48,628 nt of DNA from a virus: the IMG/VR virus record IMGVR_UViG_3300033146_003710, positions 1-48,628 of that record. The stretch is one strand, 5' to 3'. The position numbers and the translations under genes were made by a program. The notes under the pieces were generated by a model, which was given only the letters and a program-made list of their open reading frames with translations, was not told the DNA's origin and searched no databases. Below are positions 885 through 34,900 of this stretch, piece after piece (the stretch's first letter is position 1; each line of letters begins with the position of its first letter).

Positions 885-898
885 AACTACTTATATAA
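885..898 (+). promoter_or_regulatory. AACTACTTATATAA element (candidate phage promoter)
   Basis: This copy of the AACTAYTTATA motif lies just upstream of the structured, terminator-ended segment 900-1003. A second copy lies at 1010-1024, right after that terminator. Function is inferred from recurrence and placement only. Confidence 0.45.
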
Positions 899-899
899 G

Positions 900-1003
900 A
901 CAAAGTGAATAATGCAATAGTGATATTGCTTGCTTTGTTGCAATTTTTTGAATAGCATAATATCTAAAAAAGAGGTGCCATGTGAAAACGCATCTCTTTT
1001 TCT
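900..1003 (+). ncRNA. candidate small structured RNA
   Basis: No ORF fills 817-1036. The segment holds a nested hairpin: ACAAAG (900-905) pairs with CTTTGT (933-938), and inside it GCAATA (914-919) pairs with TATTGC (924-929) around a GTGA loop. It ends in a terminator hairpin with a T-rich tail. A promoter-like element at 885-898 precedes it. Ten of the eleven bases of the terminator loop (979-989) are complementary to 1057-1066, in the leader of the next gene. An attenuated leader of that gene is the main alternative to a separate small RNA. Confidence 0.4.
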
Positions 1004-1008
1004 TTTTA
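967..1008 (+). terminator. intrinsic terminator
   Basis: AAAAAGAGGTGC (967-978) pairs with GCATCTCTTTTT (990-1001), 12 bp with one G-T wobble. The loop is CATGTGAAAAC, and a T-rich tract follows to 1008. It separates the candidate RNA from the polymerase-like gene. Confidence 0.75.
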
Positions 1009-1009
1009 T

Positions 1010-1024
1010 ACTACTTATATATAA
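1010..1024 (+). promoter_or_regulatory. ACTACTTATATATAA element (candidate phage promoter)
   Basis: Second copy of the AACTAYTTATA motif, starting immediately after the terminator and ahead of the polymerase-like gene. It would give a leader containing 1057-1066, the complement of the terminator loop. Confidence 0.45.
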
Positions 1025-1096
1025 CAAATCAAATTAGTGAATATTTTCACACCTGTTTTTCACATGACAGTTTACTTGATTTGCAAATTAGATATA

Positions 1097-2819: not shown

Positions 2820-3473
2820 ATGAATACAGGAATAATATACATTGCAACAAATATAGTAAATAATAAAGTTTACATTGGTCAAACACATACAAAACTAATA
2901 TCCCGGCAAAAACAACACATATATTCAGCTAACCGAAAATTAGATACTATGTATTTTCATAAGGCAATAAGAAAATACGGAAAAGATAACTTTAAGTTTG
3001 AAATTTTAGTTGATTGTCCTATCTCCGATTTAGATATTCAAGAAATATATTGGATTAAATAATATGAGTCTTTTGGTAAAAACGGATATAATCTATCGCT
3101 TGGTGGAAAAAGTTCACGGGGTCATATATCCCCAAAACGTGATTTAACTAAGTACACTTATTATCATGTAGATGGCAGAATAGAACATGATATAACTATG
3201 GTTGATATGGCTGAAAAATATAATATATTAGTTGCTGGGTTTAATCAAATAAAATGTGGATGTGCAATTGAATATTTTAAGTGGAGAGTAACCAAAGAAC
3301 GAAATAGCCAATTTATTAAGCCAAGATACAGATTCAAAAATAAAGTTACAAATGAAGAAATTTATGTAACAATTCCTGAATTTATATTAGAATATAACGC
3401 AAACAGAAGCAATTTAAGTAAAGTATTCAACGGAAAATTAAAATCAATTAATAAATGGTATTTAATAAAATAA
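2820..3473 (+). pseudogene. GIY-YIG homing endonuclease interrupted by one in-frame stop
   Basis: The N-terminal part (2820-3062) has the GIY-YIG motif as IIYIATN and KVYIGQT, and the HKAIRKYGKDNFKFEIL stretch typical of the family. It stops at TAA 3060-3062 directly after EIYWIK. The same frame continues without another stop as YESFGKNGYNLSLGGKS, which is the expected family sequence, through to 3473. It ends with a DNA-binding module (RYRFKNKVTNE...GKLKSINKWYL). One base change thus splits an otherwise intact gene of about 217 codons. Readthrough cannot be excluded, but neighbouring genes use TAA as a normal stop, so a recent nonsense mutation is the simplest reading. Confidence 0.8.
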
Positions 3474-31445: not shown

Positions 31446-31451
31446 AAACAA

Positions 31452-31485
31452 AAAGTCAAGTAAACTGGGCGGAATACTTGACTTT
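31452..31485. terminator. bidirectional intrinsic terminator
   Basis: AAAGTCAAGTA (31452-31462) pairs perfectly with TACTTGACTTT (31475-31485). The minus strand continues with TTGTTTTTAAC, and the plus strand with ATTATATT. It sits between the convergent endonuclease gene and the SbcCD operon end. Confidence 0.8.
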
Positions 31486-31501
31486 ATTATATTAAAAACT
31501 A

Positions 31502-31879
31502 CTATTTTAAGTATGTTTCTTTAAAATAAGCCCTAACATATATTGAACTGAAATTACTATTTGCATCTTTAAAATTATGTAAGGCAGATAATGCCTTATC
31601 TTTTGTTTTAAATTCTTTTGTCTTTTTATTTGTACTAAACATTGTCCCATTTGTTTTCAATACATATGGTGCCTTCAATAACAAATCCAATACACTCTAC
31701 TTCCCAATTAGAACCGTTTGCTGCTTTGAATTTCTTTTTATCACCAACTTTTACCTTAGACCCAAAACCAAAATTTATATTATAGCTATAATAGTCTTTA
31801 ATTGGATTTCCAAAATAATCATTTGATTCATTAATAATCTTTCTGATTACTTTCCGTAATTTGTTTTCTTGTAATTTAG
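31502..31879 (-). pseudogene. decayed small gene with frameshift and no start codon
   Basis: Two overlapping minus-strand frames read as one protein. The first gives TRTKLQENKLRKVIRKII and later KVKVGDKKKFKAANGSNWEVECIGFVIEG, then stops. The second continues with PYVLKTNGTMFSTNKKTKEF and KDKALSALHNFK to the stop near 31502. The switch lies around 31660-31690. The first frame has no ATG after its upstream stop, and the second ORF alone would need a TTG. Both lesions argue for a broken gene of unknown function that still has a promoter-like element just upstream. Confidence 0.6.
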
Positions 31880-31890
31880 TCCTTGTTTAC

Positions 31891-31902
31891 TTATAAATAG
31901 TT
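31891..31902 (-). promoter_or_regulatory. AACTATTTATAA element upstream of the decayed gene
   Basis: Minus-strand AACTATTTATAAGTA lies about 12 bp upstream of the broken reading frame. It is the same motif that precedes the leftward virion blocks. Confidence 0.45.
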
Positions 31903-31916
31903 TTTTAATTCTAAAC

Positions 31917-34900
31917 CTAATCATGTTTAATCACCGCATAATTATCAGGTGTTTTATCAATCTGAATGAACTTTTCAGTTACGTCCCTCATTGCATCCAA
32001 ATGACTAATAATTATAATAAAGTCAAAGAAGTTTGTAAGATATTCAAACAGGTTATCCATTTTAACTAAATTTTCACTATCAAGATTAGAAAATCCTTCA
32101 TCAACTATCAGGAAGTTATAGCTTGGAAGATTACTAACTTTTGTTAGTGCAACCCGTACTGCTATTGATGACACGAATCGTTCCATTCCAGATGTTAAAT
32201 CCAAATTCCAAGAATCAGTATTAAATCTATTTTTATATACGATATTAATATCAATATCTTTATCATCGAGCAGGAATTGTAAAGTAAATCCTGCATTTAT
32301 TTCTACTAGAATGTTATTAACTTCATTTTGTAGTTTTGGTATAATTTGTCTTATTAATTCATATTGGAGTCCATCCTTATCAATTGCCTCAATATATTTC
32401 TCATATATAAATAATGAATCCTCATGGACTCTTACTTCACGCAATTGTCTAGTTATATCTGCAATGGTATATTCAAAATGAGTAATATTTGAATGTGTTT
32501 CTGTTAATTGTTTTTGTAATTTATTTAATTGTGTTGTAATATCTTTTTTTAATTTTAATTTATTATCAATATCAATTTGATATTTTACATTTAATTCAAT
32601 TTGATTTTGTTGTTTTTTGTATGTTTCAATGTTTTTAGTTATTGTTTTGATTTTTGTATTTATGAATTCAATCTTTGTTTTAAATTTTTCAATATTGCTT
32701 TGATTAGTTTCATATGTATATTTTAATTTTTCCTTTGCTTTATTTGCTGTATTATAATCTTTGATTTCTTGAATTATACTATTTCCACTGTTTACAAGTA
32801 GGTGTAAATTGTTTACATGTATTGATTGACTAGTGTATAATAATTCAGTTTCTTTAAATATTGTTTTAGTTGCAATTGCATCTTTCACAAATACATTATT
32901 CATACAAAAATTACAGTTATTATCATATTCAACTACCTTAAGATTTTTTAATTTTTCTTCCTGTGTTGTTTTCTTATATTTTAGTGAAGTTAAAATTGTA
33001 TTATTCTTATTAAATTCAACCTTTGCTGTATCTAGTTTTTTCTTTTTAATTTTTAACTGATTTACATCAAACTGGTGTAGCTTATTACTGATTATCTTTG
33101 CATCGGATGTATGCTTTAATACATTACTGTTTGCGGTTTTAAGGGTTAATGTTGTATTTGATAAATCAATATTAAGTTTTTTTAATTCTGAATTAAGTTT
33201 AGTAATATTAAATGATTTAATGTTAGTATCAATTTTACTTTTTATTGTACTAATATCAGAAATAAGATTTTCTTTATTATCATTTAATGTTTTAATATTT
33301 TGCTGAGTAGTTTCATATAGTGTTGTATTTGATTTTAATTCTCGACCAAATTCAGTTAATTCTGTATTCAGATTTTTATTCTTAAAATCTTTTAATACTG
33401 TTTGTTCGTGTTTTATTTCTGAATATGCTAACTTATTAAGATGTTCAAATATATCAATTCCAAGGAAACTACTTAATAACTGTTTTCTATCTGTTTGGGA
33501 CTCACTTATTAACCCATCATTATTATTCTGTAAGCTAAAACTAGTCATAATTAGATGCTTAAACTCACCTAAGTATGTTCTAATAATATTAATTGTTTCT
33601 CTCCGTTGTTCTCCATTTAAACTCACCTTTTCATTCTTATCATCAATATAATAAAAATCAACATTTACCTTTACTGCATTTTTATTATTGATTTGAATTT
33701 TAGTACCTGATTTTTCAATGAAAAAAATCTTATCATTTATTGATAATTTTAATTTACCATAAAACCAGTCCTTATCAATATTTAACAAATCAAGTGCCTT
33801 TTTAGTCCTAGTTGTTTTATCTTGTAACATAAACAACAAAATAAATAAGAAAGATGTTTTGCCAGATGCATTTCTATTAAACAATCCAATTAGACCAGTT
33901 AATGAATCAAAATTAATATAATTATTTTCACCAAAGTTAAATAAGTTACTAAACCACATTTCTTTAATTTTAATTTTATTAGCTTTTAATGTTGTAGTTT
34001 GTTTGCGGTCTAATTCATTGTTAAGCCATTCATTTTGAACAATGATTTTATTGATAAAGTCAGTAGTGAAAAAATCTTCCTTCTCATATTTATTCTTTAA
34101 GTAGTCAATAATCAGTGAGTTCTGGTAATTAACATCTGTTAAATCTTCAATTTTATCAAATTGTAAATTACCATCAAATTCAACATTATTATCTGAATCT
34201 ATTAATGTATAATCCTTAAATTTATATTTTGTTTGTAATTCAGCTACAATTTCCTTTATTCTAGTCAATTTTGTAGATTGACTAAGTATTCTTACTTTTG
34301 GTAATTCTGGAATTGTAAAATTAGGAATTACCAAATCACTGTCCATTATTTCAAACGTACAAAATCCTTGCTTATTTTTAATATTAATATATTTATGTTT
34401 TTTTGTTTCAATATCCCATTTAACAACCCCATGATACCGTAAGTCCTCAGAATAATTTTGCTGAATTAATGATGATGCATATAACATTTTTGGATGAGAT
34501 AAAACTAATTCATTATTTATTATCCTATATCCAGCTTCAAAATAATCGTTTAGTTCGTTTTTATCTATTGGTATTGTAAATGTTGATATATCATAATCTT
34601 GTAGAATTTGATATTGGTGGATATCACCTAGCATTGCAATGTCTAATCCATCAAATAATGTATTATTAATTCTAGTTTCTTTAATTTTAATGCCATTCTG
34701 TAATATGCTATTATTGACCGCACCATGATATAATCCAATTCTAATTTGAGCTGAATTTGTAAAGTCTATATTTTCAAATGGATTTTCGTCAAATACAGAA
34801 AATACAATAAAGTCAATATTATTAATATGATATATTCCAGTATCTCTTAGATAATATAAATTTTGATGATTTAATGAATCAACCAAAGGCTTTATTGAAT

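Follow-up and report, generated by a model that had tools for sequence, protein, structure and literature searches.

A candidate same-strand antisense RNA upstream of a phage polymerase-like gene

What is the role of the non-coding gap of 280 bases that separates an open reading frame at 529–816 from a polymerase-like gene (1097–2755, + strand, 552 aa)? The gap lies in a 48.6-kb viral contig, with about 25% G+C around the locus, whose whole 48,628 nucleotides were analyzed here (hereafter, the window). The contig contains a contractile-tail sheath gene with nearest annotated relatives in Microcystis phage Mel-JY01 and Flavobacterium phage immuto, and the host of the phage is probably a member of the Bacteroidota. 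Along the + strand, the gap holds a promoter-like element (P1), a 5′ hairpin, a linker, a terminator, a second promoter-like element (P2), and a leader, followed by the gene. The reading that we favor, with a probability of about 0.58, is that an antisense RNA made from the same strand represses translation of the polymerase-like gene, in a C4-like manner but not as a member of the Rfam C4 family. The terminator loop and the single-stranded middle of this RNA match the leader and the start codon of the gene, so that the RNA is probably a brake on it. We regard this as a well-anchored prediction: sequence complementarity, colinear order of the matches, predicted folds, and promoter-motif enrichment are observed, and from them we infer transcription of the RNA, binding, repression, and copy-number feedback.

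A candidate small RNA between two promoter-like elements

Promoter-like elements had been noted at 885 and 1010 in a sequence-only reading of this DNA. They are real repeats of ACTACTTATATA, at 886 and 1010. This motif is found three times in the window (0.02 expected), preceding the candidate RNA (P1, AACTACTTATATA, 885–897, +), the polymerase-like gene (P2, TACTACTTATATA, 1009–1021, +), and the tail sheath gene, which the third copy precedes by 36 nt. In their 38-nt flanks, P1 and P2 share 74% identity. All seven ACTAYTTATA sites of the window are intergenic; the (A)CTAYTTATA form, whose reverse complement reads as the T4 late motif TATAAATA, occurs at 886, 1010, 6611, 18943, 21002, 29564, and 31899, and also in L015 and L013. 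In Flavobacterium phage immuto and Microcystis phage Mel-JY01, late genes have TATTTATA ahead of them in coding orientation: 9/9 of the + strand sites in immuto and 4/6 sites in Mel-JY01 are intergenic and coding-oriented, mostly 18–36 nt before late genes. We infer that the motif is a promoter class of the phage's own. The copy at 31899 (− strand) is followed by a stretch (31446–31917, −) whose only ORF is short (31502–31690) and which is closed by a large-loop terminator at 31474; this stretch is possibly a small gene or RNA.

The candidate small RNA, of about 100–108 nt (898–1005, +), lies between P1 and the terminator and has a minimum free energy of −27.7 kcal/mol (z −3.25). The hairpin recognized earlier at 900–938 is real and spans 899–940 (+; −13.1 kcal/mol, z −3.93). 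It is followed by the linker (941–967, +) and by an intrinsic terminator (967–1005, +) with a 12-bp stem, an 11-nt loop at 979–989, and a T-rich tail (−13.7 kcal/mol, z −4.58). Among 11 terminator-like hairpins with loops of up to 14 nt in the window, the one at 967–1001 is the strongest. A 16-codon ORF that starts with GTG (MNNAIVILLALLQFFE, 905–955, +) lies within the candidate RNA; its codon use is indistinguishable from random.

Relatives of the locus were sought by protein scans of viral and genome contigs, by tblastn against phages and plasmids, and by distant blastn against phages; none was found in 2.9 million viral contigs, nor in phage or plasmid records, and pattern searches based on the two loops or on the two promoters in tandem also gave no relative of the locus. 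An Rfam scan of the window returned no family above its gathering score, and the C4 covariance model (RF01695) had no match in the contig at E ≤ 10. The Parabacteroides-1 RNA (RF03088) aligned with 896–1005 (+) over its full length but weakly (22.2 bits versus a threshold of 93.4, E = 0.037).

The terminator loop is complementary to a hairpin loop in the leader

The terminator stem (AAAAAGAGGTGC/GCATCTCTTTTT) displays the loop CATGTGAAAAC at 979–989, and the leader of the polymerase-like gene contains TTTTCACATG at 1057–1066. Complementarity over 10 nt between the two had been claimed from the letters of this DNA, and it proved to be exact and unique in the window: positions 979–988 (+; CAUGUGAAAA, the predicted kissing loop, opening energy 0.76 kcal/mol) are complementary to 1057–1066 at 10/10 positions, and exact copies of CATGTGAAAA are confined, within the window, to the terminator loop and the leader site. 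In the other 10 terminator-like hairpins, the loop has at most 6 complementary bases in the 150 nt that follow.

The leader (1022–1096, +) is long and structured, with a three-way junction at 1025–1084 (z −2.9), and is not coding-like. In it, the fold prediction places the target hairpin CUGUU-UUUCACAU-GACAG (1053–1070, +), with a stem formed by 1053–1057 and 1066–1070 (pair probability 0.96–1.0) and an open loop of 8 bases at 1058–1065 (unpaired at ≥0.97). Because the target site sits in a hairpin loop, the match is one of loop to loop, i.e., a kissing contact, and 979–989 and 1058–1065 are predicted to be complementary hairpin loops able to kiss. In shuffled leaders, a 10-nt match to the terminator loop arose with a chance of 0.0015–0.0037. 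A match displayed in an open hairpin loop was rarer, with a chance in shuffles of about 0.001 for at least 8 nt and of 0.0001 for 10 nt.

The extent of the leader depends on where translation begins. The start is most likely ATG 1097, which is favored because the codon statistics of 1040–1096 look non-coding (score −0.2, compared with a 5th percentile of 1.9 for true N termini). ATG 1097 has a weak start-context score, and by this one score GTG 1037 is better. We nevertheless set GTG 1037 aside provisionally, keeping it as a live candidate: its context and promoter spacing fit, but the extra 20 codons are not coding-like. The in-frame ATG 1064, pointed out in the sequence-only reading, is unlikely to be the start given the same non-coding statistics, and has the worst context score among the starts weighed. 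With ATG 1097 as the start, the gap between the P2 motif and the start is 77 nt, compared with 13–36 nt in the clearest other cases in the window; in relatives, such gaps are mostly 18–36 nt.

A second, colinear match spans the start codon

A second match joins the linker of the candidate RNA (941–967) to the translation initiation region (1088–1114, +; start codon ATG 1097–1099), its predicted target. The two are complementary in antiparallel order at 20/27 positions, and at 12/13 in a core formed by 955–967 and 1088–1100, so that the match spans ATG 1097. It had a P value of 0.0013 when the target was shuffled and 0.0067 when the linker was shuffled, and the duplex is worth −16.3 kcal/mol. 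The two matches come in the order needed for antisense pairing. Their combined colinear score, 64.8, compares with shuffle means of 43–45 and was equalled by 1 and 2 of 10,000 shuffles; it is the best among all gene starts in the contig, the next of the 64 others scoring 49.7. Opening both sites in both molecules would cost 0.06–2.3 kcal/mol, versus duplex energies of −10.2 and −16.3 kcal/mol. Hence the earlier proposal of a short RNA that pairs through its terminator loop with the polymerase-like leader gains support, at the level of prediction, from the kissing geometry and from this second colinear match.

Other measures were less distinctive. Elsewhere in the AT-rich contig, 2 of 13,832 segment pairs with the same geometry scored equally high. 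When the whole RNA was set against the leader with RNAduplex, the result was unexceptional (85/1000 shuffles were as good), and in the predicted fold of the candidate RNA itself the linker is partly, though weakly, paired. In the predicted fold of a read-through RNA, 1088–1100 is unpaired at 0–0.06 at most positions, whereas the P2 mRNA hides this region much less. A cis version, in which the read-through RNA from P1 buries the start codon in a duplex, is thus possible according to the fold model.

The predicted target belongs to a polymerase-like family

Searches of Pfam and of PDB sequences with the target protein gave no match; a search with PF00940 also gave none, but its control likewise matched nowhere, so that this blank carries no information. 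Folded alone, the window protein reached a pLDDT of 32. A family was built from phage L011, phage record LR756504, and Bacteroidota-related genomes, in whose alignment R214, D241, Q246, Y273, K350, E410, H432, and D433 are invariant or nearly so, and E-x-D...Q, K, and HD motifs are conserved. A low-confidence model of the L016 homologue (pLDDT 41) had Klenow as its top PDB fold match, a weak one (E = 0.27), with yeast mitochondrial RNA polymerase ranking third; against BFVD, it matched an entry named 'Putative DNA polymerase I' (E = 7.7e-7). The label 'polymerase-like', which rests on the family alignment and this weak fold similarity, is supported but not proven.

The family occurs in phages and in 14/396 sampled genomes of one bacterial phylum. 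Of the matches from scans with protein-motif patterns, L011 and L016 are genuine distant homologues, and one, at 64% G+C, was put down to chance. An upstream terminator of this kind was present in 0/16 distant homologues, so that the RNA appears to be local to this phage lineage. Upstream of the L011 homologue (L011:800–1000) there is a direct tandem repeat of about 88 nt that contains a small hairpin (TTAGAATCATTCTAA) and is unlike the arrangement in the window.

Homing endonucleases are found beside or within members of the family. Downstream of the polymerase-like gene lies a frame for a GIY-YIG endonuclease of the group I intron type (2820–3473, +, 217 codons), the N-terminal part of which matches TIGR01453 and which is interrupted by an in-frame TAA at codon 81. 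The same DNA-binding-like module ends both the polymerase-like protein (2525–2752) and the GIY-YIG frame (3198–3470), with 46% identity over 57 aa, which suggests module exchange between the two. In a bacterial genome, the homologue at L018:1528–3585 has a C-terminal region of the GIY-YIG/NUMOD1 homing endonuclease type; hence the link between the polymerase family and homing endonucleases is seen more than once.

Alternative explanations of the locus

One alternative takes the element for an ordinary terminator of the upstream gene and the inverted similarity between 941–988 and 1057–1114 for chance or for the relic of an inverted duplication, without any part in regulation. The observation was picked out of 48 kb, equal scores with the same geometry arise twice elsewhere in the contig, and no evidence of conservation was found, the homologues being without the element. 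Chance would, however, have had to place the matches in a terminator loop, a hairpin loop, and a start codon, at a combined score that 1–2 of 10,000 shuffles reach and with a displayed loop match of P 0.0001; it would also have to account for the RNA and the gene each being preceded by a promoter-like copy of its own. We consider this explanation unlikely. A different role for the same letters is suggested by the kissing motif GTGAA/TTCAC, five copies of which fall within 165 bp (905 to 1062), the densest cluster in the window (0.02% of windows), making it a real rival that these are DNA sites for a repressor or a replication initiator near P1 and P2. TGTGAAAA occurs three times (at 981, 1044, and 1057), and TTTTTCACA at 1056 resembles a DnaA box. 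Yet TTWTNCACA is scattered through the window (8 occurrences), the copies are irregularly spaced, their placement in hairpin loops is left unexplained, and so is the match between linker and start codon (P 0.001–0.007), which is free of the motif. Such sites seem to us an improbable account of the locus.

Two further alternatives involve RNA. An attenuator that switches between two folds, raised in the sequence-only reading, found no support as transcription attenuation: the loop complement at 1057–1066 lies downstream of the terminator, which ends near 1005, and the mechanism is unlikely because the target stretch would be made after the terminator and would be absent when termination is decided. 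A leader acting exclusively in cis would need no free small RNA, since in one long transcript from P1 the pairing of 941–967 with 1088–1114 would silence translation, while P2 transcripts would be translated. The duplicated promoter-like element would permit such a promoter switch, and the start region is almost fully hidden in the predicted read-through fold. Against this, the strong intervening terminator would leave little read-through, and the loop-loop match would have no role, because the terminator hairpin persists in that fold; we judge an exclusively cis-acting leader to be very improbable.

Proposed mechanism and comparison with known antisense RNAs

According to the antisense reading, a short RNA would be made from P1 (886) and end at the terminator (967–1001), and P2 (1010) would yield the polymerase-like mRNA with its structured leader of about 75 nt. 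Contact would begin with kissing between the terminator loop (979–988) and the leader hairpin loop (1057–1066); the linker (941–967) would then pair across the start codon (1088–1114), blocking translation. Transcripts that read through from P1 would carry the antisense segment in cis and be translationally silent. The polymerase-like protein would thereby be under negative feedback, scaled to the copy number of the phage genome. To our knowledge, Bacteroidota-type hosts generally lack Hfq. More tentatively, and at rather less than even odds, the whole may form one module, in which one phage promoter, present in two copies, drives both a small RNA and its tandem target mRNA, the terminator also provides the kissing loop and the linker the anti-start strand, and silencing occurs in trans upon termination and in cis upon read-through, as an Hfq-independent copy-number brake. 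A second, independently built C4-like case, in a Bacteroidota-type phage, would establish that recognition can be carried out by a terminator loop. If true, the reading would also indicate that an unstudied polymerase-like family, present in phages and bacterial genomes, is regulated.

As far as we know, same-strand antisense RNAs directly upstream of their target are rare, with C4 as the main phage example; C4 lies upstream of its target on the same strand. The C4 antisense RNA of phages P1 and P7 (Rfam RF01695; Citron and Schuster, 1990, as cited in PMC12197685) shares an operon with its target and pairs around the ribosome binding site, thereby blocking translation, and its complementary parts are likely located in loops (PMC12197685, PMC8198154). 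Among working systems, it is the nearest analogue of the candidate. By its coordinates, the candidate RNA is similarly placed upstream of its predicted target on the same strand, and has separate complementary segments around the translation start (979–988/1057–1066 and 941–967/1088–1114). It differs in having its own predicted promoter-like element and terminator, whereas C4 lies within the c4-icd-ant operon; in its predicted target, a polymerase-like gene instead of the icd/ant antirepressor operon; and in its probable Bacteroidota host, the C4 model being without a match in the contig.

ColE1 RNA I and R1 CopA are transcribed opposite their target strand, with full complementarity, and make contact first by loop-loop kissing. 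The likeness to replication-control RNAs claimed in the sequence-only reading holds for the predicted loop-loop first contact, and here, too, a replication-type gene could plausibly be controlled according to dose; it ends there, because those RNAs come from the opposite strand. In contrast, the terminator tail, the promoter-like copies, and the polymerase-like gene are all on the + strand, and the candidate RNA lies upstream, with partial complementarity in two blocks. Type I antitoxin RNAs such as IstR and OhsC act in trans on small toxic peptides and are encoded divergently from their targets. Like them, the candidate is a short RNA encoded adjacent to, not opposite, its target and predicted to pair with the leader; unlike them, it is in tandem with its target, a 552-aa polymerase-like protein.
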